Source of the DNA: Buxus sempervirens
Lineage: Eukaryota; Streptophyta; Magnoliopsida; Buxales; Buxaceae
Assembly: GCA_947561395.2 (NCBI GenBank)
Contig: OX387190.1
Coordinates: forward strand, 16,610,858 to 16,674,857
Direction: 5' to 3'
Length of the DNA stretch: 64,000 nt
In this document: one piece after another, positions 11,977 to 63,685 of the stretch
How positions within the stretch are numbered: position 1 is the stretch's first letter
How the letters are laid out: every line of letters begins with the position of its first letter
Notes under the pieces: generated by a model
Told to the model about the DNA's origin: nothing
The model's input: the letters and a program-made list of their open reading frames with translations, nothing else
Database searches by the model: none
Position numbers and translations under genes: made by a program

Positions 11977-12228
11977 TTTGTATCCGGTCCAATATACCGG
12001 ATACACTAGCTACCCTTCATGACCGGACTTGAAGACCGGATACAAGAAGATTTTCGCGCGAGATCCACGCCGATCGCCCGACAAATTCGCGGCGGCATTT
12101 AATTTTCAAATAATTATGTTTTGTATCCGGACTTGAAAACCGGATACAAAGGAGCCTCAGTGTATCCGGACTTGAAGACCGGATATGAATAAGCCTCAGG
12201 GTATCCGGCCTGAGTTGCCGGATACATT
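11977..12228. promoter_or_regulatory. Palindrome array A (39-bp units) upstream of LTR TATA box
   Basis: Units of 10-base arm, 11-base spacer and reverse-complement arm start at 11977 and 12016, then at 12120, 12159 and 12198. Spacing within each group is exactly 39. The second arm starts 21 bases after the first in every unit (11998, 12037, 12141, 12180, 12219). The unit at 12120 has arms TTTGTATCCGG / CCGGATACAAA. The last arm ends about 10 bases before TATAAATA at 12237, a likely LTR promoter. Function is inferred from position only. Confidence 0.85.
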
Positions 12229-13073
12229 AATGTGTCTATAAATAGCAAACCAGCAGCTCATATCCGGGGTTGGCTTTCTTTTGGCTATTTCCATCTCTTC
12301 TCCCCCACTGCACCTGGTCCGAAACCTCCCACTTTAACCCCTCCTTGCACCCTAAGACCCCCAAGTCCCACCTAAAGGCCATCCTACCCCTCCCCACTCC
12401 TTTCCTCCACACTTGGCAAACTTGAAGGAGAGGAAGAAGCTGCTGCTGCTGTGGGAAGGTGCTGCTCCGGCCTGTGTGCCTGCTTCAAGGAGAAGACTCC
12501 ACACTTCAAGGGGCTTCAAAACCCCAAGGTATTGTTCCTTGGCATGTTTTAATCAACATATATTAAAATGAGCATCTCTTGAGCATGATATAATATTTTT
12601 GTCTAAGTATGTTTCACATTGCTTATTTTGGTTATTTTGTTTGCATGGAGGAGCATGTTTCTCCATTTTGATCATCTATCTAATGTAACCCTATGTAATT
12701 CCCCCCATTATCCCTTCTCTTATTCGTTTGCTTCATTCATTACCATGCTCATGATGTTTGGTTTTAATCAACTTTGAAGGTTGGTTTTAACACACTTTCA
12801 AGCCCACGAAATATGCATGCACATGTATATGGAAGTCCCATTTGCATGCTCCCTTTACCCGCTAACTTAGATGATTTTCGTGATCCATGAGGTCTGTCCT
12901 AATTGTTTGGGTGTGTTGATGGAATGAGTCGCATGAGGAGACCAAGAGATGAGGTGATCCCCCATCTCCAGCACCAACGTGGGCTCAAACAGGAGCCCAC
13001 ATGATCACTGGAACAGCCCAAGAAGCATGAAAACCCAACCCCAATGCGAAAATCCAAAAAAATAGCTTCTGTA

Positions 13074-13183
13074 GGTTGATTCGGCAACTCAGGCCGGATC
13101 AACAGAAACCCATGTGTAGCCGGCTATAGATACCGGATACACAGAACCCTGTGTGTAACCGGCATCTCAGGCCGGCTACACTG
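13074..13183. repeat. Palindrome array A' (three 39-bp units)
   Basis: Units start at 13074, 13113 and 13152 with second arms at 13095, 13134 and 13173, again 39 and 21 bases. Arms differ from the consensus but still pair: GTTGATTCG with CGGATCAAC, TGTGTAGCCG with CGGATACACA, TGTGTAACCG with CGGCTACA. No TATA box follows closely. Confidence 0.8.
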
Positions 13184-15276
13184 CCAGAATTCATTTTTTG
13201 CCATTTTTGCTGATCCGGAAACCCAAAATGGGCCATGGACCGACCCGGTCCAAATTAATTCCGGTGGGCCTTCCAACGGGGCCCACCAAGCCCGACCAAC
13301 CCACTTGTGCCTAAATAAGATAAATGAGAGATTTGAGTGGGCCAGACCATTTGAGGCCCACCCAAGCCCTATTTGGGCCATGCATGTTTAAAGTAGATTG
13401 TGGTTTGGCCGAGACCACGGGCAGGGCCTGTCGGGCCCACTAAGCCCATTAAACCAAGGTTAGGGTGTCAAAACCCTAATTCAAGAAGTCTTGGGCTTTC
13501 AGGCCCAAGCCTAGGTAAAGGGCCCCAAGCCCAATGCTTGGCCCGTTTTGGCAAAGGTTAATCAAAGATAACTCAAACCACTTGGCAAACAATTATGTGG
13601 CCCACTCAAGGGCCCATAAACAGTCCCGGCTCACTTATGTATAAAACTCACTTAAATAAATCAAACTGGAATTTAAATAAAATCAATTTACTCAAACCAA
13701 AGCCCAAAGGGCCTCTCAGGTTTAGACTGAGGCCCACCAAGGGACATGTGGGCTCAACCAAGCCCACCAAGGAATCCGCGGGCCTTCCAACGGGGCCCAC
13801 CCAATCAGACTCACACCACTTTAAGCTAAGAAAGATAAAACCAAGTAAAGGGACCCACACCACTTTGGCGGTCCCGCCAGACTTAATCAAATCTCATGCT
13901 GGAATAGGAATCGGGTGAGTGAGAGACCAGAATTGACTCAAACCAGGGAGACTTATGGGACCCATCACTTGACGGGGTGGACTGGGGTGTCTACGGACTT
14001 CCCCAGACCGCAACCGAGAACATACTTAGAATCTCAAGCCGCAGACCAAGCCTTAGTAGAAGAACTTAGGCACCCAGGTGTCTGCCTGCACCCCATCAGG
14101 CAGTGGCGACTCAAAAAATCCCGAGGCACGCATCGTTCCGCGTGCGCCTCGTCGTGTGACCAAAATCGAGTGCGCACACATATAACGATGGACTTTGTTT
14201 CAGGTTTACCTGAGATAGTGAGGCAGCAGGATTCCATTTGGGTTATTGTAGACAGATTGACTAAATTTGCACATTTCCTACTTGTTCGGAAGGATCAACC
14301 GCTGCAATCACTTGTCGAGTTGTGTATACATGAGATCGTCAGGTTGCATGGTATACCTGTATCTATTGTATCTGACCGAGATCCATGGTTCACTTCCAAG
14401 TTTTGGGATAGTTTGCATGAAGCCTTGGGAATGCAATTGAAGTTTAGTACCAACTTTCATCCACAGACAGATGGGCAATCAAAATGTACGATACATACCT
14501 TAGAAGATATGTTGATGTGCTGTGTATTGGACTTTGGAAGTCATTGGAGTAAAAATTTAGACTTGGTAGAGTTTGCCTACAACAACAGTTACCAAGCGAG
14601 CATCAAGATGGCTCCATTTGAAGCTTTATACGGGAGGACTTATAGATCCCTGTTATGTTGGGAAGAAGTAGGTGAAAGGCAATACTTGGGTCCGCTGATC
14701 ATTCAAGACAGTGTAGAAAAGGTGAATTTGATCAGAAAGCGGCTAAAAACAGCCCAAAGTAGACAAAAGAGCTATGCCGATGTAAGAAGGTGAGAGTTGA
14801 AGTTCGAGATAGGAGATATGGTGTTTCTAAAGGTATCTCCCTACCATGGCATATTGAGGTTCAGCAAGCAAGGCAAGTTGTTCCCCAGATTCAATGGACC
14901 ATTTCGTATTATTGGGACAGTTGGGCCTGTAGCTTATAGATTGGAGTTACCGCCTCAACTAGCCCATGTACACGACGTATTCCACGTATCCATGCTTCAT
15001 TGTTATGTACCGGATCCTAGCCACATTATTGATCTAGAGCCATTGGAAGTTCGTGAGGATGTGACATTTGAAGAGCATCCTATTCAAATCCTTGATAGAA
15101 GAGAGCAAGTTCTCCGCACCAAGACCGTGCCACTGGTGAAAGTCTTGTGGTAGCACCATAATGTAGAAGAAGCTACATGGGAGAACGAAGCCGAAATGAG
15201 AAAGAAGTATCCTATACTCTTCGATGAAGCACGAGGTAAATTTTGAGGACAAAATTTTCCTTTTAGAAAGGTAGAA

Positions 15277-16096: not shown

Positions 16097-18206
16097 TGTG
16101 AGACATGGAAAAAATCAATCTCGTGACTTTCCTATCATCACACGGGATTCAAAAAAAGGAAGAGTCGCCACCATTCTTTTTAGGTGTGAATGGACACCAA
16201 AATCATCAAAACAAGCACAAAGGCAAAACTAGAGTAAAATTAATTCCACCTTAAAATAAAAAATCCAGAGATGGGTAAAGGGTTAGATTATTAATAGAGG
16301 AAGGTGTTAGGCACCCCCATTCACCCACACAAGGAGGTTGCCAATTGTTGTTCATGCTCAAAATAAAGAAAGCTTGCTAATTAAAATAATCAAAAAAGGC
16401 TTGAAATGGATTAAACACATGTATGATCCCTCCACATGAGAAGTCCAATGAATCTTAGACTTTCTTTTATGGAAGTATCACTTATAGGACATCACCATTA
16501 ATTGCAAATCAAGATAAAACTTGAATACAAGCAAGTGGAGGCAAATCCGAAAAACTCTGTAAAAGATGGAGCCATTTGACCCTAAATAATTCAAATCAAA
16601 TTCAAATTGAATCAAACCAAATCCAATTGAAACATTATGATAAATAAAAGACTCAGGAAATTTTCATGTAGATCTGATTAAAATCCTAAGAGTTATGCTA
16701 TTTTGAAATTCACCGTTATAAGTTGATAAAAGTGGCAAGTGGGCAACTTTGAAAATCAATTTGTGAAAATTGGCTCCATATAAATCTTTGAAAATTTGCA
16801 AGAATGAAGTACATTGTGCCATCTTTCAAATGAAATAAGCCTCAGATGAAACTTCATTCGGATGTGACTTGTGTGACCTCACGAACATACCTAGAGGATC
16901 AAAGATCAGCACAGAATTGTGCTATAGGGCAGTTCTGAGTAAATCAGTCACAAAAGACACAAATGAAAGCAAAAAAAATTTGAAACCAATTGAATTTGAA
17001 AGCATACTCATAAAGGAAAACACAAAAATCAAAATCACTTAAATCGGACTTAAATCGAGCAAGTGATGCTCATTCAAAGTGACAGGTTCAGCAATCTGGC
17101 CTGAACGGACCTACCGACTTTGATCGAATGGTGTTACAAATCCTCTTCATAAAAATTAATGAATTTTTACAGACACAAACTAGACAATCCCACCTTTCAC
17201 TTGTCTTTGGAATCATCCCAAAATTCATCCGGATGATGAAGTTATGGGTGTTCTAAGATTGGGTATAGGTGGTGTCCAGATTTGAGACTTTTGAGCAAAA
17301 TCAAGTCAAAACAGTGGGCAAGTGTGTGTAATCCGTGCAATCCAAACCATAATCATTTGAAAGAGTATTGAAAAACCTCCAGAAGGAAATAGGGGGTTCT
17401 AATCACTAAGGTTCCATTCCATTCTTGTTTCCCCTAGTTCTTTCTTCACCTTTTACGACAAGAAATAATCTTGGGGTACTTTGAGTAAGGAATGGGGTTT
17501 CACAATATAGTAGGCCATTAAGAGGGTTCTAGAACTAAGGTTCCATTCCCATTCTCGTTTCCCCTAGCTTTCTCTTCACGTTTTACGGCTGGAGATAGTC
17601 TTGAGGTACTTTGAGTAAGGAATGGGGTTTCAAACACATTCAGGCCATTATTCTACAGAAAGGAAGAAGAAGAGACTAATTCTAGAATTTAAGAACATAA
17701 AAGTAAAATAAGGTTAAGGCTTAGCTGGGTTCTGGAAGCAATGGGGCATAGGTTCCCTTCTTCACTTGGAGCTCTTCAATCTCCAACTCTTGGCCCTTTG
17801 CTTGAGGAGAGGTCTCTTATTTATAGGCAAAGGATAGGATAAGGGGTGCCCTAATGCTAGACACAAAATGATGTCTAGAATCCACCAACTTAAACCCTAA
17901 GGCTATTTCCGGGAATTCCCATTCTTAGAACAGGGATAGGACAGTAAAAGGTGCAAACTTTAGGAATTTTGCACTTTCTGCAGCAAAATATTAGTATCCG
18001 GCAACTCAGGTCGGATACTAATAGAACTCTTTGTATCCGACCTTATTTGCCGGATACAAACAAATTAGTTTGTATCCGACAATTAATATCGGATACACAG
18101 GGAAAAGCCTTTATCAGACTTTTTACATCGGATACAAAAGAAAAAAGCTTTTTTAATGATTTTGGCCAATTATTCATCTTTTTAAGTGCTATTTGGGGTG
18201 TGTACA
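16097..18206 (-). mobile_element. 3' LTR of element A
   Basis: On the minus strand it begins TGTAGACACC-like (here TGTACACACCCC) at 18206 and ends CCATGTCTCACA at 16097. It matches 51088-53515 closely, with roughly one difference per 20 bases over the first 280 bases by eye. It lacks about 320 bases present in the other LTR, with the gap at about 17390 (gaaatagggggttctaatc). A TATA box (TATAAATA on minus) lies at 17825-17818, and the tggcgactc phrase near 16170. Confidence 0.93.
17991..18138. promoter_or_regulatory. Palindrome array B (four 39-bp units) in 3' LTR
   Basis: Second arms start at 18012, 18051, 18090 and 18129, exactly 39 apart; first arms start at 17991, 18030 and 18069, with a weaker fourth. 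The pairs TTAGTATCCG/CGGATACTAA and TTTGTATCCG/CGGATACAAA are perfect. The array is about 70 bases inside the LTR start and 165 bases upstream of the minus-strand TATA box. The 5' LTR has the same array at 53300-53448, with arms partly decayed. Confidence 0.88.
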
Positions 18207-18222
18207 ACTGCCCCTCTTTGCT
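18207..18222 (-). promoter_or_regulatory. Polypurine tract of element A
   Basis: The minus strand reads GCAAAGAGGGGCAGT directly before the LTR. The same sequence precedes the LTR at 63685. A purine-rich stretch here primes plus-strand DNA synthesis in LTR retrotransposons, and it identifies both LTRs as 3' LTRs. Confidence 0.85.
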
Positions 18223-19832
18223 GGAATTGCAAAGCAATGAAGGGCAAAGATTTAGACAAGCCAAAATTGCGCTTTCTTAGTCATGATTTGCTTGGTTCAA
18301 TTTATCAAAATAATTTTGGGTGGAGATTTGCCAAAAAGCCCTAACTTTAAGGGGGCATTTTTCCAAGCTGTCTTAAATTCCACTGAGCTCTCGTGGCTAT
18401 GAAGTGGATTTTAAGACCCAAAATAGGATTTTTGAAAACTGATTTTGCAGTAAATCATGTCAGAAAATTGACTAATTATCTTGACCAAAATGTAAGATTT
18501 TTTTTCTTTTCTTTTCCTTTCATTTTTTTTCTTTTTTTGTTCCCTTTTTTTCTTTTTCCTTTTCTTCTTTTTTTTATTTTCCTTTTTTTTTTCTCTTTTT
18601 TTTTTCTTTTTTTTTCTTTTTGTATCCGGCATTGTTGTTCGGATATAGGAGCCTTGCTTTGTATCTGACGTTAGTTGTCGGATACACCATGCTATATGAA
18701 CTGTGCGCGCGAACGCGACTTGCATTTCATTTCTTTCTTCTCCGAACTCTAAGATCGGTTACTGTCTTCACCTTCTTCGATGACTCTGTTCGATTTCTTC
18801 CCCTCCGGCGACCTCCTTTAATTCCGGCGGTTTCTCTTGACTCCGGCAACTCTCTGCTAAGTCTGGCGACTTCCAAAGCTCAAGATTTATTTGTCAAGCC
18901 CTAGTTCGGCTTTTCTTTCTCTGACTTCTAGTAATTCAACAATCCGACGCCATCGTGCCAACTTCAGTGATACTCCATTTGTGTTCCAGCGACCTAGGTG
19001 GGAATTCCTACTCATTGCCAATCTGATTTCATATTTGCAATTAGACGCCCACCCTTCCATTGTGCTTGCCACTCAGATAGTAAGCTATCTTTAAATTGAA
19101 TCTCTTATTGCTTGATCAACTGTATGCATTTGACAAATTTTTTGAAGCATGCTTGCAAACCTATATCCTCAAATTGACATTGGCTAAGACATTGGATTTT
19201 CTGCCAATGGTGATTTTCAACCGAATGGCATGATTTTCAGATTTTGCCAATGTTTCTGAATTGTCGATGGTGGATTTTTCATGTGCTCATCTTCAACTTT
19301 ATCACCATACCATACTATGATTTTTCTCAATTTGTCTTGACTTCCCAACATGTCTTACCAATTCTTGACTTGAATTCTGATTTCCTGTCGGTGGTGACCT
19401 CCCACTGGATTGCTTATTTCATTTTGAACTGTAAGCTTTTTAGATTGTGAATTTCAAATGCTTTGATGGAAACATAATTTCAAATGCTCATCTTCAAATT
19501 TGATTCAAATATCATGCCATGATTTGTTCTTTTTTCTCGCAATTTGCCTTGATTTTAGTATACTTTTGATCAATGTGGTGCTCCAACTGCCAGAACTGTT
19601 CCATTATTGGCCCTTGGCCTCCACAGTTTCTTTTGATCTTTGATCAGCTAAGACCTTTTGCTTTTGCATAACTGTCCTGCTTTCATGTAGCAGTCCTGAA
19701 ATAAATTAGCAGATATTAAGCCTTGTAGAGATCTTTAGGACAAAATGCTTTAGAACCAGAATTTCTGATAAACAAATTAACACAAAATTGTTAGTTAGAC
19801 AGAAATATCAAACACTTCCCTGTTTCGTGCAG
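18223..19832 (+). other. Upstream/leader region of the antisense PMD gene
   Basis: A pyrimidine-rich run (18497-18620) is followed by palindrome array C, a TATA-like TATATGAA at 18693-18700, and then AT-rich DNA with no convincing coding. It ends at a pyrimidine/CAG just before ATG 19833. It probably contains the promoter and 5' untranslated exon(s) of the plus-strand gene. Small frames here are unsupported. Confidence 0.45.
18619..18688 (+). promoter_or_regulatory. Palindrome array C with TATA-like box, upstream of antisense PMD gene
   Basis: Two units start at 18619 and 18658 (39 apart) with second arms at 18640 and 18679 (21 after each). Arms are TTTGTATCCG / CGGATAT and TTTGTATCTG / CGGATACA. 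TATATGAA begins at 18693, five bases after the last arm. The layout matches arrays A and D. Confidence 0.75.
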
Positions 19833-20301
19833 ATGGCTAGAGGTTGCTCTCGTGTGCGGGAGGAGGTTGATCCGGCTGATCAGCCCTCTTCTTCCCGAGC
19901 TAGGATCGAGTCCGATCCTAGCATCACCTTGTCTGAGAGTTCCAGAGAGGGCTTTGGCGAGGGTTCTGCTGAGGTAGGATACCCAATTCTTTTTTCTTTT
20001 CCTTCCTATTTTTCCCTACACAAACCTTCCCACCTCATGTTTTTGACTTTTAGCCTGTTGTGGCTCCCACTCGAGGTCATGGGAGAGGCTGAGGTAGAGG
20101 CCGAGATGGAGATTAGGTTGCGGAAGCCATTAGAGGTAGAGGATGAGGCCGAGGTAGGGGCCGAGTTCAGGATCAGGCCCATGATGGTGGAAGAGGCCGT
20201 GGCAGAGGCCGAGGACGTGATAGGGCCAGAGGTGCAGTTCAGGATTAGGCCCCTGAGGGTGATGGTAGGGGGTTCCGCTTAGTCTTTCCAGAGGAGCTGC
20301 G

Positions 20302-23300
20302 TGTAAAACCCCGAATTTTCAGTAAATAAATAAATAATAATTACTTATGAATATCTTGAATGTCAATATATTTGTCAAAATAACTTAGAGAATAAACTTG
20401 GAAATTTCGGAATAAATTGAATGGGTAGATGTGAAAATATTAAGAGAAGGGTATTTCGGTCAATTCACATTAATTATCGGTAAATAATTAAATACATTAA
20501 TTAAAATTTGTTATTAGACTTGAGAAATAATAATAGATTTAAATTGGGGTTTAGATTGTCTATTAGCCATGATATTTAAAGCTTAGTAATTGGAATAATG
20601 GCGTATTGGTAGTTATACTTGATTTGAAACCTGAAGTCGAGGCGAAGAGAATTTTGTTGAAGGATATTAATTATAATTGTAGATGATCACACTGATAGAC
20701 GAGATCCGGAGTTTGACGCAGATCTGACCGTTGGATCGTGAGATATCAAGGAAAGAGTGGATTAACGGTCCTTATTAAGTCTAATGGATGGGTACGTATG
20801 GAACCTGACCCTAGGGAGATGCGTGGGATCAGGGAAGAATAAAATAGGGTTTAATGTTTTTAGTTTCATTCGTAGGGTGTCTTGGGCGTTGAAGTTTGGG
20901 GTTGCGGCGGAAGAGAAGAAGAACGAGAGAGAGAAAGGGAGACCGAGAAGGAGGAAGAGGCCTATCTCTGGTTTCTCATCATTCCTGGAACGTCTCTTGC
21001 CTTCGAAGGGGAGAGGAAGTCTCTGGTTGGAAGAAGAAAGGATTTGAGCGGACGGAGGTAGGTAGCACCGTTTTCTCGTTCGTTTTGATTTCCTGCAGTT
21101 TATTCGATTCCATTGCATGATTTATGGTTATATAAGTATGTAGATAGATTGATTGTATGCTTATATGAATGTTAGAAGCAATTTGAATACAAAAAAATTA
21201 GTTTCGAAACTCCGTTCGTCGTTTTGGTTAGAGCGCCGAGCTCGCCTGCGCTCAGCGCTCCTGGGCGATGTTCGGCATTAGTTAAAAATTTGGAGCGCCC
21301 GAGACCGCCGAGTGACGGACGATCGGCGCTCGTGTTAGAAGAAAATCACAATTAAAATCAAAGAACCGCTCACATAGGGTCGCCTAGCTTCGCCTAGGCG
21401 ACCAAATCGTCCAAATACACAAAAAGGGCTTGTAATCATTACAAGCCTAATTGTTAATAATTTTTATTAAAATTTAGTCAATAACACTCATTTGTAATAA
21501 CTCCCTTTTTACTTTATTTGACTTAAACTAAAACCTAAATACTTCTATTTATCCTTTTTGACCATGACTAAACCTTAATAACTTTAAAAACACAAACCAA
21601 TTTAAAATCATGCTATGTACGTAAATTCCTCCCACTATATCCAAACTTGAATAATTTTTATATTATAACCGAATCTTAATTAAATTCTATTACCTTAAAA
21701 ACCACTCACCTATACTATTAAACAATTGAGTATTAATGTAATTAATACATGATTAGAACCGCACTCTAGCGTGCGTGTTACGCGTCCCATTTCCTCTGAA
21801 ATTAAATATCTGTCTAACACTAAATCGGGTTATTACATTAAACATATTTTTATATACTAAACAAAATATTATGACTAATAAATTGAGGAACTGTTTAGAA
21901 CCGAACTTTGAACAAGAACCTAATATGTTATAAATAATAATGGAATTGAGAATTATCTGTGTGATGGCTTGGTGGCCAGCTTTATTAATAACCCGCTTGG
22001 TGGCGGAGATACCCGTTTGGTGACGGAGACCCTAACCTGCTTGGTGGCAGAGATACCCGCTTGGTGGCGGAGACCCTAACCCGCTTGGTGGCGGAGACCC
22101 TAACCTGCTTGGTGGCAGAGATACCCGCTTGGTGGCGGAGACCCTAACCCGCTTGGTGGCGGAGACCCTAACCTGCTTGGTGGCAGAGATAACCCGCTTG
22201 GTGGCGGAGATACCCGCTTGGTGGCGGAGACCTTACCTCCTACGGGAGAGATTCATTACCTCCTGTGGGGCAGATGTATTTCCGATGGATTGCATCCTAC
22301 AGGAGAGATACCTCATGTGGGGGAGATGTGATTATGCGTGATTGCATCCCACATGGAGGATGGGTGTGTGAGTTACCACTGGAAGGTGAGGAAGCTATCT
22401 CCTACGGTAGAGGTAGATGCTAGGTGTTCACATCCTGTGGTAGAGTTATGCTGTCTCCTGCAGGGGGTACCTATAGTCTTAGAGATGTGCATTCTCCTGC
22501 GGAGCTTGTGTGGATACTACGTGTTTGCGTTCTATGGTAGAGATAGGCTACTACCTGAAGGTTGGCTTTTATTACTGATATGATGATTGATTCTCAGGAT
22601 GATGGATTGTTTATTTAAAAAGGAAATATTGAAATGTCATAACTGAATAGAATTGATATGATTTAATGAGAACTGTTAAAATGGAATATTATGGAATCAC
22701 GAATAAAATGTGGAACTGCTCTTAAGAAGACACTAAAGAAAATAAACCAGAAACCATGGGAATGTGAAATATAATACACTGTCCTTTAAATTGAACGGAA
22801 ATGCACAGGATTAACTTATTTTATTTCGGGCACTGAGTAAATATTTGTTTTATATTGAGATTATTCGTTTATCTTATTGACCGTAATTAGTCGTCTATTT
22901 TACCGAGCATGAAACCACTGTTATTTTCTATATGTATAAACTGTTTCCTCATGCATGTGTTACCTACTGAGATAGTTGTATCTCACCCCTACTTCATATT
23001 CTACTTTTCAGGTCATCTTGGAGAGGACGCCACGGGTTAGACAGATAGTGGGTTGAAGTCTAGAAATTCCATATGAAAAGAGTAGGGTGATTTTATATAG
23101 CTGTATTTATTTTATTGGAATCGTAATAGATGATTTTGTAGGATATTAAGAGTTAGTTAAATTTGTAGTTGCCTTTCATTTGATTAGTGAATGTAATCGG
23201 ATGATTCAGCTTCTAATAAATGATTTAAGCTTCCTAGTACTCTGATAAATCTTAGTTCTTTATTTCCTTATATTTGAACTGATTGTAATGTACCACAAGT

Positions 23301-23360
23301 TAATGCCTTGATCCGAGTCAAAATGAGAAAAAAAAAATGACCCGGATTCGGGGCGTTACA
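20302..23360 (+). mobile_element. Solo LTR, TSD CTGCG (20297-20301 / 23361-23365)
   Basis: It starts TGTAAAACCCCGAATTTTC and ends CGGGGCGTTACA between CTGCG duplicates, inside exon 2 of the PMD gene. It is the same family as the LTR at 41788-44807. Features in order: CpG-rich block at 21230-21420, minisatellite at 21990-22240, TGAGATA-GTTG-TATCTCA hairpin at 22968-22985, and a pyrimidine/CAG acceptor at about 23010. No internal region is left. Confidence 0.93.
21990..22240 (+). repeat. ~24-bp minisatellite in solo LTR
   Basis: The unit cttggtggcggagaccctaa and close variants repeat about ten times. The related LTR at 41788 has a different array (ctcccgcaggaggt type) at the matching place, followed here by single copies of similar phrases (tcctacgggagagat, 22230-22330). 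Confidence 0.9.
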
Positions 23361-23481
23361 CTGCGAGCATCGGTTCAGGACACCGAGCTTCTTAGTGGGT
23401 TGGATCATCATCCCTCGATGTGTGTCCGAGCGGATCTTCCTCTCCAGTATCCCCCTTCTCATCTACGAGGTAGTTGGGGAG

Positions 23482-25850
23482 TGTAAAACCCCGAATTTTC
23501 CTTAAATAATAAATTAAATTAGTAAATAATATTACCGAGAGTTATGATTGATAGAAACATTTTAATATTGTAGGGTGTGATCAACTTAGCGGAGATCTAG
23601 AATTAGACGCAGATCTGACCGTCCGATCGTGAGATATCGAGGTATGTATTCTAATTGGGCAAGGTGTATAGAAGAGTTGCATGGGAGATGCATAGGATCA
23701 GGGGGTATATATATGTATAAAGAAATAACCTAAATTGTATACTTGTATTGTCGCTCGTATTGAAGAGCCGCAAGCGACGAAACCTGTTGAACGACCAAGA
23801 GAAGAAGAAGAAGAAGAAGAAGGAAGGGCTGGGCGTGCGTTCATCGTCCAGGGAGTTCCTCAGTGCAAGAGTTTCGCCATTGTTCAGAATAGAGAAGGAG
23901 AAATCAGCGTATAGAGGTAGGTGACATCGTTTTGGTTTAAAATTGGATTTACCCTTGTTTAATCGCAAATGCATGTTTCTATGTTATGTAATGTTGTATT
24001 TAGTTAGCTAAGCATGCTATAAATACACTAGAATGAGTTTAGACGAGGAAAATCATGATTTAGAACTGTTTCTGCTCGATTTGGCAAGACCGCCGACCTC
24101 GACTGTACTAGGCGCTCATCGGCGATCCTAGGCGCTGGTTATAAATTTGAGGACGCCGTGGACCGCAGGACGACGGACCGTGGGCGCTCGAATTTGCACT
24201 ACCGCCGACTGATGACCGCTCGGAGCGATCCTGAGCGATCCCAGGCGCTCTCAGCAGAAAATCCAATTTTTCATAATTTCGAACCTAATTCAACTCTAAA
24301 CTATTTTTAGACAATTTTAATGATTAACTAAGGTCTTTTAAGACCAAAATAAACTATCTAATTCCCTGTTTTGCAGAAAAACAAATTAGGGAGATATTTA
24401 GGACATTAGTTGCCAAGTTTTGAAGGAAAATAAGAAATGTGATTTTGGAAAAGCCTAACTACCATTTGATTATCTAAACACTTCTAAATGGCATTATAAA
24501 TCATAAGACATTATAAAGAGAATTCAGAATTCGAATGACTGAATAATGAAGTAAATGCACAGATATAACCATTATATGCCGCTAGGCACCAACCCTTATA
24601 GAATTATGATACCTTAGGGAATTTTGGAGTCTAGTGGGCATAGCTGGTTATGGATCCATAGTCGTAGCTAGATAGCTGAGGGATATGTCATTTGGGTTGA
24701 GTTACTCCTATATGCGACGCGCTTCTTTTGCAAGTTAGTTTGTCTGGGAAGGTCCTATGTCTGGAGGGACACCCCGGTGAGCCGCTGGTGATTCCCTGTA
24801 CATGTGGATAAGCAACCATCTCCATGTATTGATTCTGGTGCTGCATGCTGGTGGTACATGCCAACTCTGATGGGTACGTGTGCAATAAGTCGGTGACTAC
24901 GGCTCTTGTCTAAGCTGCGCTGCATGGGGCTTGAGTATCATTAGTAGCATCGCTCCTAAGTCGCACGGTGGTATAGCAATTGGTTGAGAATCATCTCAAA
25001 AGGTTTATCTAACTTTGTGAGTCCTACCATGACACTGAAAACACAACACTTGATAAGATTATTAGTATTATTGTGCACGTGCGGGATGCATGTGATTGGG
25101 ATATTGGTTGGATGTGACTGCTTAGTACATCCTGGCAATGTGTGGATTATGCTACTGATTTGGCTATTGAATTCTTATATTAAAACTTGTTGAAAATCAT
25201 TTCTAGAACTGTTTATCAAACTGTTTTGTGTTCATGAATGGTATAAATGATTATGCGAGCCTGATTTATCGATGTTGCTTAATCGTGCATGAAATGTTAC
25301 TTTGCTTATATTAACTGTTTAGTCATGCATGTGTTACCTACTGAGATATTCGTATCTCACCCTACTTCTATTCCATTTTTTTCAGCTGATACGCGAGAGG
25401 GGGATCTCTTAGACTTCCAGGGAGAGATAGCCGAGTATTCGCCGGAGGATTATTATTATCCAGATCTTGTCTGAGTTGGATTGATGTTATAGACTTAGCA
25501 TTTTTAATTGGTTTATTATCATTTATTTGGATTTGATGTATGAGAGAGATAAGAGAGAGATAGTAACCAGTTCATTTTACCAGACTTTGATATTACTGAC
25601 TGATGGTCAAGCTTTATGCTTAGTTGAGGATTTTGATCTACCCTTCCGCACATACTTGTTTCCGCAACTCTGATAGTTTAATAAAATGATTGGATTTTGT
25701 TTTCCTTGGTCTGGTATGTTATTGATGTTGTAATTGATATGGGCCAGTAACACCTCGGATTGGTTGTTGAACTAAATTCGGGTTTTTACAGTAGCGAACC
25801 GGGTTCGGGTCGGGTGTCGCTTTGCACTGACCCGGGTTAGGGGCGTTATA
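23482..25850 (+). mobile_element. Solo LTR, TSD GGGAG (23477-23481 / 25851-25855)
   Basis: It starts TGTAAAACCCCGAATTTTCC and ends GGGGCGTTATA, with the last CA changed to TA. The GGGAG duplicates match perfectly. It also lies in the PMD gene. A donor-like agag|gtaggtgacatcg lies at 23917, the hairpin TGAGATA-TTCG-TATCTCA at 25342-25359, an acceptor at 25385, and then a frame ending PEDYYYPDLV and TGA at 25474. Confidence 0.93.
25342..25474 (+). other. LTR hairpin, splice acceptor and EDYYYP mini-exon
   Basis: The stem TGAGATA/TATCTCA with TTCG loop (25342-25359) is followed by a pyrimidine tract, CAG (25383-25385) and a 29-codon frame whose end reads YSPEDYYYPDLV. The minus-strand copy at 29205-29293 has TPEDYYYSDLV with mostly silent codon changes. 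Translation is not proven; there is no local ATG in frame directly after the acceptor. Confidence 0.5.
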
Positions 25851-28126: not shown

Positions 28127-28588
28127 ATTAGGATTTTTGTATATTTTACATTATCCTTGTACTACTAAGACTTGTATATATATATGAAAAAAACTTTTTA
28201 TTCATTTTCTCTTGTTCTTCTTTCTTTTTCTTTTCATTTTTCTGCAATTATAACTTGTATACAGGTAAAACATTTGAACTTTTCTTCTTTTTCCTCTTTT
28301 TTTGTTCTTTTTTCTTGTATCCGATATATCAGGTAGGATAAGGTGCCATTTCTTTGTATCCGACAAGAAATGCCGGATACAAACAATTTTTCTTGTATCT
28401 GGCATTTTTTGCCGGATATGAATAGAATCTTTTGTATCCGATCTGATATGTCGAATACATTAAAACATGCTATAAAATCAAGTGGCCTCGAGATGTGCGT
28501 TATTTTGATGACTTTTTGAGTTTTAAAAACCCCCCTTTCTGCCTTTTTCTTCCTTCCCTTGATTTTTAGCAAGCTCCATTCATACCTA
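28127..28588 (+). promoter_or_regulatory. Spacer between the two antisense genes, with palindrome array D and TATA box
   Basis: After the PMD stop there is an AT-rich tail and pyrimidine runs. Array D has four units starting at 28314, 28353, 28392 and 28431, with second arms at 28335, 28374, 28413 and 28452: exactly 39 and 21. A TATA box, TATAAAAT, lies at 28471-28478, 11 bases after the array, and the ATG of the next gene at 28589. This is a plausible promoter for the DUF7745-like gene. Confidence 0.75.
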
Positions 28589-47623: not shown

Positions 47624-47759
47624 TGTGCGGGCTTTTGATCTGGTTACGGGAGTAATGGTTGCAAGTACTTTATACCTGGAGAAGGAAAAACAAAGAAACA
47701 TGTCAGCTCCAATTTAATCCTAGTCACACACCTATAAATGTAGATAAGTGAAGTAGGTG

Positions 47760-48890: not shown

Positions 48891-49134
48891 TTTTTTTTTT
48901 TTTTTGATTTGTTGAATTTCCTCAGTTTTCAAGTTCAAAAGTTTGATTGAAACATGTTTGAGGTGAATTGGTATCAAGAAATATGATACCTTGGCCCCTT
49001 TAATGTATCTTGAGGGAAAGGGTAGATTTGAGTTCCAATATTAAGTTAAATCCTTTGTTAGATCATTTGGACCTTGGAATTATTTTTTCACATTCCCATT
49101 GAGGTGCCCACAAGTTGTTTACATTGTTGTGGAC

Positions 49135-49331
49135 ATTTTATATTCAAAACATTGGGATAAAAAAATTAATTTGGAAGTTTTGGATTGTATCCGACATATT
49201 ATATCGGATAAAGGCATGATTTACTGTATCCGGCTTAAATAGCCGGTTACACACATAAACCTTTGTTACCGATATTTTATATCGGTTAAGAAGAAATAAT
49301 GGCTTAACCGACCTGAGTTGCCGGTTAATGC
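49135..49331 (-). promoter_or_regulatory. Palindrome array E and TATA box in the leader of element A
   Basis: Units start at 49184, 49223, 49262 and 49301, with second arms at 49205, 49244, 49283 and 49322: exactly 39 and 21 again. Arms drift from GTATCCG/CGGATAA to TTAACCG/CGGTTAA, keeping complementarity. On the minus strand a TATAAAAT box lies at 49142-49135, about 40 bases downstream. This may be an internal promoter for gag. Confidence 0.75.
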
Positions 49332-49339
49332 CGAAATAA

Positions 49340-51063
49340 TCCTTTTTTGACTCATTTTTTTCGCTAGATTTGTACACTTTATGTTATTTTTATTCCCTCT
49401 CAATGTTCACCTTGACTTGGCTCTAAATACAGTCCCAAATTGGACTTTGACACTATATTTGCAAAAGAATGCATGAATGTTCATAAGGGTACATGCTCCC
49501 TCAAAATTAGACACCATATTCAAAGATTTTGTACATTTGGTTGACTCCTACATGGATTTTCGGTAGGATCACTTCTGAGAAGAGTAAGAAAACTCTTCAT
49601 ATGGGGTACACCAGTCTTAGGGTATAGGCTTCCTTGGGAATAATTTCATTCCAAGCATAAGGACACCATGGGTCTTACTTTTCATGATATGAAGGTAATT
49701 AAAAAAAATGAGTTTACCTTGCCACCTTGTGTTACCTTTAATATAGTACTCATATTATACTTTGGCCTGTGAAGCATGCAAATGGCCTTCCCTCAATTAC
49801 ACCCAATTCCCCAAATGTAATTGTTTACTTTAGCTGAAAAAGTGTTTCTCCACCTTCAAGCGTATGGTCTTTGGGTTTTGGCTTATTGGCAACTTAGATC
49901 TCAAGTCTAGTGATGCCCAGAATCGAATCACAGATCCCATTGTCATCACATCATTGACTCAAATTCTAAGGTGAATGTTTTTACTTTCGCTTTCCGAAGT
50001 ATCGACCTCGTTGCGCTAAGCTACACAAATTCGGGTTCAACTTCCTATAGGTAATGGGTAGGCTGTGCAAAAAGTTTAAAGTGCTCAAGTGCATTTGAAA
50101 TTCAAGGTGCATTCATAATGTCCCAGCCCCTTGCCACTCTTTTTCGCAGCCATGCATATATTTTCAAACCAAGGCAAATATGACATTATATTGACAGTAA
50201 AAACACAAGCAAGCAAGATAAACACTCAAACATGCTCATGACTATCATATTCACAAAAGTAATACCCAAGCATGTTATCATATTGTACTAACAACCATTA
50301 ACCCTGAAAAGCTTGCTTGAAAACTCAAAACATCCACTAAATTCTCACATTTCATGCTCTTCATTTTGATGCTCAAATTGCATTATTCATACCCAAATCA
50401 AAGCTTAAAAATACAGCAACTATTGATAAGGTACAAGAAGTGTTTTAATTTAGAAAACATGCTTGAAAACCTCTAAAAACACCCATTGAATTCCTAGGTT
50501 TCATGCTCAAAGTGCATTATTCATACCCAAATCAAGGCCCAAAAATCCAATAACTAAAAATATGGCATAAGAAGTGTTTTAATTTGGAAAACATGCTTGA
50601 AAACCCCCAAAAACACCCACTAAGAACTTCAGATTTTTTGCTCATTATTTTCATGCTCCACGCATATCATCCATACCCCAAATCAAGGCATGCCTTAAAA
50701 GAAATAAAAAAGCAAGTAACCGTATGGTGCAAGCAATAATTGATCATGGAAGACATGCTTGGGAACCAGAAAAACTACACTGAATTTCCAAATTTCATGC
50801 TCATGATCAAAACATATTCATATACCCCCAAAGCCAAGCATGTTCTCTTAACAATGCAATAAGTAAACATGTGTGACAAGATAAGGCCCTTAAACATGAT
50901 TTTAACCATAACCAAACAATACATACATGCTTCTATTCATATGAATTTCTGAGCATACAAATCAAATCTAAGATACATCAAACATGCAAGAAGTAAAGAA
51001 ATCAAAACAACAAGCATTCAAGAATAAAAACATGAACAAAACACAAAACATGGCTTAAATCAA
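49340..51063 (-). other. Distal leader of element A, with ~140-bp repeats at 50270-50840
   Basis: No gene is seen. Between 50270 and 50840 a block of about 140-150 bases recurs about four times (aaacatgcttgaaaac, aaaacaccca, tttcatgctc, attattcatacccaaatcaa). The rest is AT-rich unique-looking leader sequence next to the primer site. Confidence 0.7.
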
Positions 51064-51085
51064 CAAGTCCCCAGCAAAATCGCCA
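51064..51085 (-). promoter_or_regulatory. Primer binding site of element A
   Basis: The minus strand reads TGGCGATTTTGCTGGGGA just downstream of the LTR end. This resembles the TGGCGAC...GCTGGGGA primer site usually assigned to an arginine tRNA in Ogre/Tat elements. It identifies 51088-53515 as the 5' LTR. Confidence 0.8.
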
Positions 51086-51087
51086 AT

Positions 51088-53515
51088 TTTGAGACATGGA
51101 AATAATCAATCTCGTGACTTTCCTATCATCACACGGGATTCGAAAAAAGGAAGAGTCGCCACCATTCTTTTTAGGTGTGAATGGACACCAAATCATCAAA
51201 ACATGCACAAAGGCAAAACTAGAGTAAAATTAATTCTACCTTAAAATAAAAAATCCAGAGATGGGTAAGGGGGTTAGATTATGAATAGGGGAAGGTATTA
51301 GGCACCCCCATTCACCCACACAAGGTGGTTGCCAAGTGTTGTTCATGTTCAAAATAAAGAAAGCTTACTAATTAAAATAATTAAAAAGGCTTGAAAATGA
51401 TTAAACACATGTATGATCCCTCCACATGAGAAGTCCAATGAATCTTAGACTTTCTTTTATGGAAGTATCACTTCTAGGACATCACCATTAATTGCAAATC
51501 AAAATAAAACTTGAATACAAGCAAGTGGAGGCAAATCCGGAAAACTCGGTAAAAGATGGAGCCATTTGACCATAAATCATTCAAATCAAATTCAAATTGA
51601 ATCAAACCAAATCCAATTGAAACATTATGATAAATAAAAGACTCAGGAAATTTTCAAGTAGATCCGATTAAAATCCTAAGAGTTATGCTTGTTTGAAATT
51701 CACTGTTATAAGTTGATAAAAGTGGCAAGTGGGCAACTTTGAAAACCTATTTGTGAAAATTGGCTCCATATAAATCTTTGAAAATTTGCAAGAATGAAGT
51801 ACATGGTGTCATCTTTCAAATGAAATAAGCCTCATACGAGACTTCATTCGGATGTGACTTGTGTGACTTCACGAACATGCCCAGAGGATCACAGATCAGC
51901 ATAGAATTGTGCTACAGGGCAGTTCTGAGTAAATCAATCACACAAGACAAATGAAAGCAAAAAATTTTGAAACCAATTGGATTTGAAATCATACTCATAA
52001 AGGAAAACACAGAAATCAAAATCACTTAAATCGGACTTAAATCGAGCAAGTGGTGCTCATTCAAAGTGACAGGTTCAGAAATCTGGCCTGAACTGACCTG
52101 TCGACTTTGATCGAATGGTGTCAAAAATCCTCTACATAAAAATTAATGAATTTTTACAGACACAAAATAGACAATCCCACCTTTCACATGTCTTTTGAAT
52201 CATCCCAAAATTCATCCGGATGATGAAGTTATGGGTGTTCTAAGATCGGGTACAGGTGGTGTCCAGATTTGAGACTTTTGAGCAAAATCAAGTCAAAACA
52301 GTGGGCAAGTGTGTGTAATCCGTGTAATCCAAACCATAATCATTTGAAAAAGTATTGATAAAGCTCCAGAAGGAAATAGGGCACGAATTTGGCTCACCAT
52401 TCTCTTTGATTGTAGAGAATATACCAAAACCCCCAAAATGGAGCAGAAATGCCCAAAACAGAGAGATTAGACCGAGGGGTCTTCATTTGAAAACTTGCTT
52501 GTATTCATTTGAAAACCATTCAGAAATGTCCAAGAAATGTTTGGGGCCATTCATTTCAGATCTACCATAACGAGTATGATAGATCCAAAATATAAGCATA
52601 TTTCAACAAAACGAGTGCGATGTGTGCATGTGTAAAAATCATCTCTTTAAATTAATCAACACATTACAACATATGATATTCAAAACATATCAATCAAATG
52701 GGGGTTCTAATCACCAAGGTTCCATTCCCATTCTCGTTTCGCCTAATTCTCCCTTCACCTTTTACGACTACAAATGATCTTGGGGTACTTTGAGTAAGGA
52801 ATGGGGTTTCACACAATAGTAGGCCATTAAGAGGGTTCTAGAACTAAGGTTCCATTCCCATTCTCGTTTCCCTTAGCTTTCTCTTCACGTTTTACTGCTA
52901 GAGATAGTCTTGAGGTACTTTGAGTAGGGAATGGGGTTTCAAACACATTCAGGCCATTATTCTACAGAAAGGAAGAAGAAGAGACTAATTCTAGAATTTA
53001 AGAACGTAAAAGTAAAAGAAGGTTAAGGCTTAGCTGGGTTCTGGAAGCAATGGGGCAGAGGTTCCCTTCTTCACTTGGAGCTCTTCAATCTCCAACTCTT
53101 GGCCCTTTGCTTGAGGAGAGGTCTCTTATTTATAGGCAAAGGCTAGGGTAAGGGGTGCCCTAATGCTAGACACAAAATGATGTTTAGAATCCGCCAACTT
53201 AAACCCTAAGGCTATTTCTGGGAATTCCCATTCTTAGAACAGGGATAGGACAATAAAAGGTGCAAACTTTAGGAATTTTGCACTTTCTGCAGCAAAATAT
53301 TAGTATCCGGCAACTCAGGTCGAATACTAATAGAACTCTTTGTATGCGACCTTATTTGCCGAATACAAACAAATCAGTTTGTATCCAACAATTAATATCG
53401 GATACATAGGGAAAAGCCTTTATCCAACTTTTTACATCGGATACAAAAGAAAAAAGCATTTTTAATGATTTTGGCCAATTATTCATCTTTTTAAGTGCAA
53501 TTTGGGGTGTCTACA
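51088..53515 (-). mobile_element. 5' LTR of element A
   Basis: On the minus strand it starts TGTAGACACCCC at 53515 and ends CCATGTCTCAAAA at about 51088, where the expected final CACA has changed. At 2428 bases it is longer than the 3' LTR because it keeps a stretch at about 52379-52697 that the other has lost. Palindrome array B' is at 53300-53448 with second arms in the same 21-base register (53321 onward). The right flank is the CCAGC duplicate. Confidence 0.92.
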
Positions 53516-60323: not shown

Positions 60324-61241
60324 ATATAAATCCTTAAAAATTTGTATTAATGAAGTATGAGGTACCATATTTCAAATGAAATATGCCTCATACAAAACTT
60401 CATCCATTTGTGGCTTGTGTGCTCCCTCAAACATACCTAGAGGATCACATATTGACTCTTTTCTGCAACTGAGCAGTTCAGAGTCAATCAAACACACACA
60501 ATTAAAATCAAAGTAAAAACTCTTGAAACCAATTGGATTTAAAAATAGACTCACAAAAGAAAACCCAGAGATCGAAATCACTCAAATCGGAGTTAAAATG
60601 AGCCTTTGGTGCTCAATCAAAGTGATAAATTCAGCAATCTGATCTGAACTGACCTATCAACTTTAATTAAATGGTATCAAAAATCGGCTTCATATAAATT
60701 GCTCAAATTTTACAGAATTAAACTAGACATCTTCACCTATCACATGCCTTTGGAATCATTCAAAACCTCATCCAAATGATGAAATTATGAACAATCCAAG
60801 GCAAGGTACAGGTTCTATCCAGATTTGAAAACTTTAATTAAAAGTAGGTTAAAACAGTGAGTGTGTGTATTCGATTCATATGATCTGAATTAAAATCATT
60901 TGAAAAGAGTTGGAAAACACTCAAAAAGAATATAGGGCAAGGATTCGGCTCAGACCTCTCATTGATTGAAGAGGATGAGCCAAATATACTCAAATTACGG
61001 CAAAAAGCTCCAAATAGAGAGATTAGACCATGGGAGTCTTCTCTTGAAGATAAGATCACTTGAAATCGACTCATGAAGTCTTAAGAGATTGTTCTAAGGC
61101 CTCTGATCTCGGATCTACCATATTGAGCATGGTGGATCCAAGATCTAAGCCTATTTTTACACCAAATCAAGTGATATGTGTATTTGTGTAGGAAATCATA
61201 TTTTTAGGAGAGAATGGAAATCAAATATTATAGAGAGCATG

Positions 61242-63685
61242 TGTGAGACATGGAAAATCAATTTAATGACTTCCTATCATCACACGGGATTGAGAAAAAG
61301 GAGGAGTCGCCACCATTCAATTTTTAGGTGTGAATGGACACCGAAATCATCAAATAAAAATACAAAAAGGCAAAACTAGAGTTAAAATAACTCTACTTTA
61401 AAATAATAACCAAAGATGGATAAGGGGATTAGATTATGAATAGGAGAAGGTGTTAGGCACCCCTATTCATCCACACAAGGTGGTTGCCAAGTATTGCTTG
61501 AAAAAGGCTTGCTAATAAAATGCATAAAAAGTGTTTGAAGAAAAGGACAAAGACATGTGAGATTTTTCATGTGGGTAACCCAATTGAATTTGGGCTCCCC
61601 TTACGAATACATCTCTTTCCGGACTCAATAATCAGATAAAAATGAGAAGAAATATTGGGTAAAATCCAACTAAATCAAATCTAAAGAGTTTAACCTAAAG
61701 ATAATCCATTTTGAAAACCTAGAGCAAAACCTAGCTTAAACCGTATGTGCACTTGATTAAATGGATTTGAATTAAAATCTTCTAAAGACAATTAGAAAAT
61801 ACTCAAGAAAGATTTAGGGTGAGGATCCGGTTCATAAATCTCATTGATTAAAGAGAATGAACCGAATACACCCGTCTTGAGACAAAAACCCCAACTAGAG
61901 AGATTAGACCATGAAAGTCTTCCCTCAAAGATGAGATTACTTGAAATCTTATAAAAACAGTTAGAAAATACTCAAGAAAGATTTAGGGTGAGGATCCGGT
62001 TCATAAATCTCATTGATTGAAGAGAATGAACTGAATATACCCGTATTGAGACAAAAACCCCAACTAGAGAGATTAGACCATGAAAGTCTACTCTCAAAGA
62101 TGAGATTACTTGAAATCAGTTCAAGGAATTCTAAGGGATTGATCTAAGGCCATTGATCTCGGATCTTTCATAATGAACATGATAGATCCAAAATATAAGC
62201 CTATATTACACCAAAGCGAGTGAGATGTGTGTTTGTGTAAAAAATCAGATTTTTAGGGGAGAATAGAAATACATTGCTATAAAGAGCATGGATCTTGGTA
62301 TTCTCTCCAGAAAATGAAATCAAACTCACAAGATTAACAAGCACATATGAATCTCAATGTATATCATTCAAAAGGGGTTCTATACCTAGGGTTCCATTCC
62401 CGTTCTCGTTTCCCTTAGCTCCTCTTCACGTTTTACGGCTAGAGAGAGTCTTGAGGTACTTGGAGATGGGTTTGGGATTTCATATACACATAGGCTTTAC
62501 ACTACAGAAATGTAGAAGAAAAGACTAACCCTAGAAAAAACAGAAAAGAAAAGGGTTGGAGGCTTACCTGGATTTCTGAAAGCAGATAGGCAAGGGTTCC
62601 CATCTTCACTTGGAGCTCTTCAATCTCCAATTTTCTAGCCATTTGCTTGAGAAGAAGCCCTCTATTTATAGGCAAACTCAAGGGTAATGAAGTCCTAAGG
62701 GTAGACACAAAAGTGTGTCTAGAACCTTCCAACTTAACCCTAAAGCATTAGTTCAGAGGCATATGGTTAATCTCAGAGGCTAAATTTGGGAATTCCTACT
62801 TCTCAAATAGAGGTATAGAAGTAAATAAGTGACAACTTGCGAGATATTCCAATTTTGAACAAAACACTTGTATCAAACAACTCAGGTCGAATACGAACAA
62901 AAATCTTTGTATCCGAAATAATATTTCAAATACAAAGAAAAAGGCTTGTATCCGAAATATAATTTCGAATACAAAGAAAAATGCTTTTATCCGAAATATA
63001 GTTTCGGATACAAAGAAAAATGCTTTTATCCGAACTATAATTTCGGATACACAGAAAAATGCTTTTATCCGAACTTTAATTTCAGTTTAGGGCAAAAATG
63101 ACTCTCTGCACAGCTTCTGCATGGCACTGACCCTTACCTGCACAGACAATACTTATTTACATGTAATGTCATTTAAGTAAATGTCCTCGTATTTTTTAAT
63201 CTCCATTTACTTAAGATATTATATGTAAATAAGCAAACACCCCCTCCCCCCATTTGAATCAATTAAAAATAGTTCCAGACTCAAATTCCAAGTGAATAAA
63301 AAGTCAACTTTCCAATTCAAGGCTAAATTACGGTTTTTCAGGTCCGGTAAAAAGATTTAACTTGTTAATACTAAGGAATTTGTCAAGATTTAAAGGCTTA
63401 AAAAATTCATTTATGCAATAACATTGCTAAAAACCTAATTACCGGGAAAAATTATCTTGAAATCTTGCCTTAAAAAATATTTCATTTTTTGGGTCAAAAG
63501 TCAACAAAATTTAACCAGAAAAAGTTTGACTTTGCGCAAAAGATTGAATTTGGGCCTTTTCCTTTATGGTTTTGGATTCAAATGGGTTAAGGATCTCAAA
63601 CCCAATGCAAAGAATTGAAAATTCCAATAAAATATTTCTCTCCTTCAAGGTTTATCAAAAATCGTGCAATTTTGGGGTGTCTACA
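61242..63685 (-). mobile_element. 3' LTR of another Tat element (continues past the window)
   Basis: On the minus strand it starts TGTAGACACCCC at 63685 and ends CCATGTCTCACA at 61242. The polypurine tract GCAAAGAGGGGCAGT precedes it, so it is a 3' LTR. A tandem duplication of about 169 bases lies at 61785-62120. The TATA box is TATAAATA on minus at 62670-62663. It inserted into the LTR 56637-61241, at a site that this LTR itself also contains (aagagcatg near 62285). Confidence 0.88.
62867..63092. promoter_or_regulatory. Palindrome array F (six 39-bp units)
   Basis: Units start at 62867, 62906, 62945, 62984, 63023 and 63062, each 39 apart, with second arms 21 bases later (62888, 62927, 62966, 63005, 63044, weak 63083). 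Arms vary between GTATCCG, TTATCCG and GTATCAA. The array lies about 200 bases upstream of the minus-strand LTR TATA box. Confidence 0.88.

Follow-up and report, generated by a model that had tools for sequence, protein, structure and literature searches.

The question raised by this locus is why a short palindromic cassette should keep one spacing in sequences that otherwise have diverged. The locus is a stretch of 64,000 nucleotides from the genome of Buxus sempervirens (contig OX387190.1, positions 16,610,858 to 16,674,857), hereafter the window. The cassette consists of two inverted arms, GTATCCG-N11-CGGATAC in the core, and follows itself in arrays with a period of 39 bp. An initial annotation of the window suggested that this spacing is under constraint, as in a site for a dimeric or multimeric DNA-binding protein, or else that the repeat spreads as a unit. 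We find that the cassette forms palindromic arrays at apparent promoters in the long terminal repeats (LTRs) of Ogre-type retrotransposons, and that these arrays are real, strongly constrained and promoter-linked. As far as sampled, the carriers are two Ogre-type families of Ty3/gypsy elements, hereafter families 1 and 2. The cassette is probably a promoter-proximal cis-regulatory site of these elements, bound by a predicted dimeric or multimeric protein that would control the downstream TATA box.

The window was scanned for GTATCCG-N11-CGGATAC with at most three mismatches, the null being 100 dinucleotide shuffles. There are 30 matches, compared to the shuffle mean of 0.70 and the largest shuffle value of 3. 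Direct reading together with the scan gives units at every start in the nine clusters of the initial annotation. Most units of that list were recovered among the 30 matches; however, those at 13074, 49262, 49301 and 63062 exceed three mismatches. In the first three the arms are off the consensus yet mirror each other wholly or largely, and unit 63062 has lost its right arm. The unit at 12016 has a degenerate left arm. Two matches, at 11771 and 18738, are additional to the list. The pair 11977/12016 lies 104 bp from the unit at 12120, and this step recurs as 103-105 bp in other copies of the family-2 LTR.

The unit is a 31-bp dyad with arm starts 21 bp apart, often repeated four times every 39 bp; the number of units differs within and between arrays. 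The half-site consensus, derived from 171 distinct units, is approximately TTTGTATCCGR. Half-sites 21 bp apart would be separated by two helical turns, and so would lie on the same face of the helix. A scan with the spacing left free, as had been proposed in the initial annotation, used 7-base arms with at most one mismatch and pairs within 200 bp. The top mode of the distance between forward and reverse arm starts is 18 (22 of 70 pairs), equivalent to 21 for the 10-base arms considered originally. The next modes are 57 (18 pairs), 96 (9) and 135 (4), each a further step of 39.

The same geometry is observed genome-wide. We searched the 676.5-Mb assembly of 247 contigs, in which the window belongs to contig C12, using reversed patterns as controls; all pattern counts are possibly lower bounds. 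The pattern GTATCCG-N11-CGGATAC, identical to its reverse complement, has 30,553 exact occurrences, and its reversed control is absent (0). Arm gaps of 0-10 yield 97 matches (control 14) and gaps of 12-42 yield 1,827 (control 42). Neighbouring arms at the 39-bp period (linker N14) occur 16,882 times (control 0); linkers N0-13, all lengths together, account for 169 matches (control 11), and N15-45 for 2,778 (control 25). Nearly all matches with gaps 12-42 or linkers 15-45, among the matches listed, represent a spacer variant (GATACTC...) with an extra half-site; beyond these, the two counts may contain some genuine scatter. The 39/21 spacing holds throughout the genome, with no general scatter around these values in the genome counts. 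The window shuffles and the empty reversed control rule out a chance origin of the cassettes. Three arms in register were found in none of the viral contigs scanned, and among the scanned genome contigs in a single stretch, from Mycolicibacterium, taken as chance.

The comparisons below use sampled loci, which are not random. Loci L021-L024 (4 of 20 regions of one batch) and 19 of the 20 regions of another batch were picked from a list of irregular spacers, which inflates spacer gaps in the drift comparison. Loci L055-L058 (4 of 12 regions) were picked from a list of irregular linkers; they enter the carrier and TATA counts and are outside the drift comparison. The remaining loci are mostly early listed matches on contig C1.

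Drift was assessed in 21 aligned family-1 LTR arrays (210 pairs), using the 95 pairs with less than 85% identity between the array and the TATA box. Over these pairs identity is 92.5% in arms, 40.3% in spacers, 42.4% in linkers, 75.5% between the array and the TATA box, and 54.4% upstream. Gap fractions are 0.2% in linkers, 0.8% in arms, 5.4% between the array and the TATA box, and 13.7% upstream; the spacer value, 6.1%, is inflated by the loci chosen for irregular spacers. Since linkers are 42.4% identical with 0.2% gaps, they drift in sequence and not in length. The proposed constraint on spacing is therefore supported: linker length was held while linker and spacer identity fell to about 40%.

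The two LTR families provide a further comparison. In the window, family-1 and family-2 LTRs align at E < 0.05 solely in the cassettes (best 25 bp, 96%), and the best match outside the cassettes is 23 bp at E = 0.19. The reverse transcriptase and RNase H (RT/RH) proteins of family 2 are 69.0% (500 aa, C1 copy) and 74.4% (320 aa, window copy) identical to those of family 1. Because the LTRs match only in the cassettes despite RT/RH identity of 69-74%, the arrays do not descend from one recent duplication, the case in which the spacing would be merely inherited. This explanation is rejected also by the linkers, which have drifted while keeping their length.

Covariation between the arms was tested on the 171 units thinned to 59 below 75% identity, with 1000 shuffles. 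Symmetric double changes are in excess at positions +-4 (16 vs 8.1 expected) and +-5 (18 vs 8.6 expected), values reached by 0 of 1000 shuffles in both cases. The last unit of the window array at 49184..49331 has symmetric variant arms TTAACCG/CGGTTAA, and a unit in the leader array of L005 has both arms changed, to ATAACCG/CGGTTAA.

The arrays have a set position and orientation relative to TATA boxes. The test set comprised 64 distinct arrays of at least two units each, from the sample and the window. In the family-1 LTR the TATA box lies 153-166 bp beyond the array, in two modes; in the family-2 LTR and at antisense gene B of family 1 it lies 8-11 bp beyond. A TATA-type motif pointing away from the array at 8-11 or 153-166 bp accompanies 44 of 64 arrays; for the reversed orientation the count is 0 of 64. 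The distance classes were fixed after the first loci had been viewed; 10 of the 12 arrays obtained afterwards fall within them.

Genome-wide, the family-1 type pattern CGGATAC-N156-167-TATAAATA occurs 4,533 times, both strands summed (control 34). Among the 100 matches listed the gaps are 156 (57 matches), 157 (1), 161 (1), 165 (2), 166 (23) and 167 (16), so that the two family-1 modes appear to be about 10-11 bp apart, near one helical turn. The pattern of family 2 and the antisense gene, CGGATAC-N10-13-TATAAA, occurs 4,383 times (control 120), compared to 1,889 matches (control 1,180) of CGGATAC-N14-44-TATAAA, which covers 31 lengths. Many of the N14-44 matches listed are near-identical sequences CGGATACCC...CTATAAA with the TATA box 14-19 bases beyond the arm; these may represent a different subfamily and its antisense-A promoter.

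The terminal units carry an orientation mark, the recurring spacer CAACTCAGG / CCTGAGTTG. CTGA is found in the spacer of the unit nearest to TATA in 34 of 44 oriented arrays, CTGA or CTCA in 8 of 79 middle units, and CTCA in the distal unit of 18 of 44 arrays. The arrays stand as first described; that description lacked the relation to TATA, the terminal-unit mark and the genes with plant mobile domains (PMD) considered below. The ratio of observed to expected CpG is 1.26-1.42 in three arrays vs 0.30-0.61 elsewhere in the LTR. A second dyad, approximately TAGACA-N8-TGTCTA, was observed between the array and the TATA box in aligned family-1 LTRs (window 17818-17990 and 53127-53300, minus strand).

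The carriers were identified from flanks in which the cassettes were masked. At E <= 1e-5 these flanks match family 1 or 2 in 40 of the 41 loci sampled, including a few weak cases (L032, L035, L056). Locus L035 has no unit with a gap of 11, and L042 has one weak unit. Locus L058 contains a cassette pair with a TATA box 11 bp away, and its flanks match neither family; this is possibly a third carrier family. The window contains the following features of family 1:

16097..53515, minus strand: LTR retrotransposon of Ogre type that contains nested insertions; its two LTRs about 95% identical; gag, RT and integrase (IN) on the minus strand
16092-16096 and 53516-53520: 5-bp target duplication CCAGC of this element
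16097..18206, minus strand: 3' LTR
17991..18138, minus strand: 3' LTR array, four units at 39 bp; TATAAATA 166 bp beyond on the minus strand
17818..17825, minus strand: TATA box of the 3' LTR
51090..53515, minus strand: 5' LTR
53300..53447, minus strand: 5' LTR array, four units; TATAAATA 166 bp beyond
53127..53134, minus strand: TATA box of the 5' LTR
49184..49331, no strand assigned: leader array of four units between the 5' LTR and gag; no conserved TATA box
18619..18688, plus strand: array of two units immediately within the 3' LTR, with TATA-like CTATATGA after it
25776..26435, plus strand: exon of antisense gene A, plant mobile domain (PF10536)
28314..28461, plus strand: four-unit array between the antisense genes; TATAAAAT 10 bp beyond, at 28471
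28520..29056, plus strand: N-terminal exon of antisense gene B; no Pfam match in the window copy, the L006 gene being DUF7745/PMD
31673..32587, plus strand: C-terminal part of antisense gene B; no Pfam match in the window copy
62867..63092, minus strand: array in a third, related family-1 LTR, with five units detectable and the sixth decayed; TATAAATA 197 bp beyond (62663-62670)

Family 2 is represented in the window by a solo LTR:

11411..14178, plus strand: solo LTR (TG...CA) within the integrase gene of another gypsy element
11406-11410 and 14179-14183: target duplication CATAT of the solo LTR
11977..12228, plus strand: LTR array, 2 + 3 units with 104 between; TATAAATA 9 bp beyond, at 12237
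12237..12244, plus strand: TATA box of the LTR
13074..13182, no strand assigned: second, internal LTR array of three units, the first degenerate; no TATA box found at the expected distances

As the initial annotation stated, the cassette is present in two LTR families, in the gag leader (49184) and between antisense genes. Of the arrays associated with antisense genes, that at 28314 lies between two such genes and that at 18619 precedes the other. The array at 18619..18688 is apparently the promoter of antisense PMD gene A; locus L007 has a corresponding two-unit array, followed by TTTTATAAG. The window gene B was matched to the L006 gene by position and by side-by-side comparison of the translations. 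In the three family-1 copies examined in full length (the window, L005-L007, L010-L012) each LTR has an array, and further arrays lie in the gag leader and ahead of genes A and B. In family 2 the LTR array directly precedes the TATA box and is usually split by the step of 103-105 bp; two longer LTR copies (the window and L021) have a second, more internal array. A 9.5-kb deletion derivative (L008/L009) keeps the LTR, leader and antisense-A arrays. It has a gag-pro frame, and reading of its open reading frames (ORFs) of at least 110 aa, with no Pfam scan, revealed no pol or PMD. Positions 8464557-8571861 of contig C1 contain eight family-1 LTR arrays on one strand in steps of about 15.32 kb, apparently tandem elements sharing LTRs.

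The pol ORF of family 1 in L006 has the domains RNaseH (256-360), RVT_3 (415-533) and rve (700-797). Thus an additional RNase H domain lies between RNase H (RH) and integrase (INT), a feature of the Ogre lineage. Another feature of this lineage, the extra ORF with PMD, is present in gene A of the window, the L006 and L011 genes, and the leader ORF of family 2. Ogre elements further have gag-pro and pol in two ORFs with an intron-like gap between them. Family 1 has separate large gag-pro and pol frames, which may reflect this organisation. In family 2 an open frame extends from gag up to the end of L044, and L045 begins with an open frame. The sequence following the family-1 5' LTR may resemble primer binding sites complementary to tRNA-Arg, which are a feature of Ogre elements.

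Other repeats were observed in the same region. The leader of the family-1 element contains a 77-bp tandem repeat of about 14 copies (window 47804-48883), and a second gag ORF (Retrotrans_gag, 40609-41715, minus strand) is nested within the element. A repeat some 2.3 kb long is present in related copies at 23480-25848 and 6686-8879 (plus strand) and at 31168-28828 (minus strand); one of the copies ends beside the PMD exon.

Both families carry, along with the motif arrays, ORFs for candidate binding proteins of the PMD/DUF7745 type. In the C1 copy of family 1 (L005-L007) both antisense genes match PMD, and gene B matches DUF7745 as well. In the full-length family-2 relative on C1 (L021, L046, L044, L045) gag is preceded by a sense ORF of 496 aa (L046 387-1874) with DUF7745 and PMD. 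Among the matches listed, 86 genome copies of this ORF were scored (of 8,671 first-look candidates), and 74 of them are free of internal stops. A heptad periodicity such as a coiled-coil dimer should have is evident in gene A (0 of 300 shuffles). A homologue search with antisense gene B returned no protein at E <= 0.001. The PDB sequence search with the family-2 ORF returned only a BEN-domain chain at E = 0.59, which is not evidence. PMD proteins of Arabidopsis are needed for the expression of genes with a promoter motif (PMC7156037, PMC9899485). The element-encoded PMD/DUF7745 family is tentatively the leading candidate for the protein that binds the cassette.

The following mechanism can be proposed. 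A dimeric or multimeric protein would read the half-sites TTTGTATCCGR, with arm starts 21 bp apart, and once bound would control transcription from the TATA box downstream of the array. The array type would be common to the sense promoter in the LTR and at least one antisense gene promoter; since these promoters share it, one factor could drive gag-pol and the accessory genes together. Binding of a protein and regulation through it are what we infer from the arrays. The dimeric site fits their position, orientation and dyad symmetry, the fixed length combined with free sequence, and their use by otherwise dissimilar LTRs. If this is right, an abundant class of repeats (30,553 exact units in 676.5 Mb) has its promoters, including those of accessory genes read backwards, marked by a single short geometric code.

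If the PMD/DUF7745 protein were the reader, the array would be autoregulatory, a self-recognition code similar to that of the VANC proteins discussed below. A bolder and doubtful proposal is a self-recognition regulon, in which Ogre PMD proteins would bind the 21/39 dyad code at the LTR and at their own antisense promoters and switch sense and antisense transcription jointly, and deletion derivatives that keep the arrays would parasitise the protein in trans. Such a regulon would be the LTR-retrotransposon counterpart of VANC, and the PMD domain would gain a DNA-reading function. If the promoter role is right, the arrays make the function of PMD, and the reason why Ogre elements retain antisense genes, directly testable.

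Several observations weigh against a promoter site read by a dimer. No TATA box at the expected distances was found for 20 of 64 arrays. These comprise six leader arrays, which the promoter role does not explain; four antisense-A arrays, with a non-canonical TATA-like sequence where read; two second arrays of family-2 LTRs; five arrays whose TATA box lies at 197-211 bp, as would follow from loss of a proximal unit; and three others, L009 (ended by the edge of the piece), L024 and L041. Family-1 LTRs can be aligned over the stretch between the array and TATA (75.5% identity), so in this family the fixed distance is partly inherited. Exactly 39 bp separates neighbouring units in 129 of 160 cases, in a sample leaning towards irregular loci. 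After thinning, +-4 and +-5 are the only positions with clear covariation, and tests of this kind are inflated by shared ancestry. It is weak at +-13 (5 vs a mean of 1.8; reached by 31 of 1000 shuffles), positions +-12 have no symmetry beyond composition, and most core arm positions are nearly invariant. Finally, heptad periodicity is unclear in gene B (36 and 66 of 300 shuffles) and in the family-2 ORF (140 of 300).

The strongest alternative concerns the identity of the reader and not the promoter site. The arrays could be read by a host transcription factor or chromatin protein exploited by the elements, with the PMD proteins as unrelated passengers; this is a serious possibility, only slightly less probable than the element's own protein. 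Palindromes of Sireviruses, which occupy a similar position, were compared with plant cis-elements, and mainly stress-related factors were recovered (PMC2829016). However, the Buxus cassettes occur in two Ogre-type families (40 of 41 loci, a small sample) and precede the accessory genes of the elements themselves.

It is improbable that the palindromes act as RNA hairpins in packaging, in RNA stability or as a source of small RNAs for host silencing. Arrays in U3 and in the leader do fall within the genomic RNA of LTR elements, and each unit can pair into a stem of about 10 bp. In maize, palindromes of Sirevirus LTRs are hotspots of small RNAs (PMC5311732, PMC10760457), and small RNAs on the arrays may be a host response. 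However, RNA stems tolerate G-U, and the mismatched pairs show no such excess: among 1030 paired positions of 103 LTR units there are 45 G-T, 46 A-C and 47 other mismatches. Such a balance of G-T and A-C fits a DNA dyad better than an RNA stem, and the hairpin is therefore rejected as the primary function. Moreover, independent hairpins need neither a fixed distance to TATA nor a rigid 39-bp linker.

Propagation of the cassette on its own, as a small repeat that moves or expands and merely inherits its spacing, is very improbable: the number of units does vary, and tandem duplication of 39-bp units is an obvious route of array growth, but the masked flanks place 40 of 41 loci in two families, mostly at set TATA distances and with no scattered insertion sites, linkers keep their length while losing identity, and LTRs with no other detectable similarity have the same geometry.

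The proposed promoter site for a dimeric protein can be compared with several known systems. The initial annotation knew of no named element matching the cassette; a close precedent, and the closest one in the sources accessible to us, is provided by the palindromic repeated motifs (RM) in the LTRs of Sireviruses, which are Ty1/copia elements (PMC2829016). These RM boxes are CpG-rich palindromes with CGG-CCG cores clustered upstream of the conserved LTR TATA box, where they form a CpG island, and an extra cluster precedes the accessory ENV-like gene (Bousios et al. 2010, PMC2829016). The Buxus arrays likewise are palindromic clusters upstream of TATA in the LTR, and the Citrus motif AATCCGGCTWRCCGGATT shares the core ATCCGG...CCGGAT with the cassette (PMC2829016). 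However, the carriers here are Ty3/gypsy elements, as seen from the order RT-RNaseH-integrase in the pol ORF. The arms are about 10 bases long with an 11-base spacer, the period is fixed at 39, the array-to-TATA distances fall into set classes, and the arrays of the accessory genes are antisense to gag-pol. The cassette arms read CCG...CGG, and the order CGG...CCG requires a G next to them, as is present in 68% of half-sites; the length between CGG and CCG then exceeds that of the RMs listed for Sireviruses.

The VANDAL/VANC system of Arabidopsis (PMC5735166) is a model of how a transposon-encoded DNA-binding protein can work with tandem motifs. However, VANDALs are DNA transposons, the VANC21 motif YAGTATTAY is not such a dyad, and the string 'palindrom' is absent from the main text of that paper. 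DNA binding by VANC was demonstrated experimentally, whereas here it is predicted from sequence. The MAIN and MAIL1 proteins similarly link PMD to genes bearing a promoter motif, 'DOWN' (PMC7156037, PMC9899485). These are host proteins, however; the MORC1 promoter motif CATGCAGTTT is unlike TTTGTATCCG, and in the accessible portions of these papers the link to the motif is by expression and not by direct binding.

Among the relatives of the carriers, extra ORFs with PMD are present in 57% of Ogre elements, and the extra RNase H between RH and INT characterises Ogre/Retand (PMC6317226). Antisense TRP28 ORFs lie between pol and the 3' LTR of Retand, and a regulatory role was suggested for them (PMC11963269). 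The extra or antisense ORFs are thus alike; palindromic promoter arrays are not described in the accessible portions of these two papers, where 'palindrom' occurs in the Retand paper once, in the reference list. A paper on orchids (PMC9289625) describes extra ORFs or domains, and no such arrays in its accessible portion. We found no report of palindrome arrays at Ogre-type promoters in the accessible portions of the open-access literature. What is new here, compared to the Sirevirus precedent, is the Ty3/gypsy setting, the fixed geometry and TATA distances, and the use at an antisense promoter. If the promoter role is right, the Sirevirus palindrome phenomenon is thereby extended to the other LTR superfamily, which would point to a convergent or shared logic of promoters.

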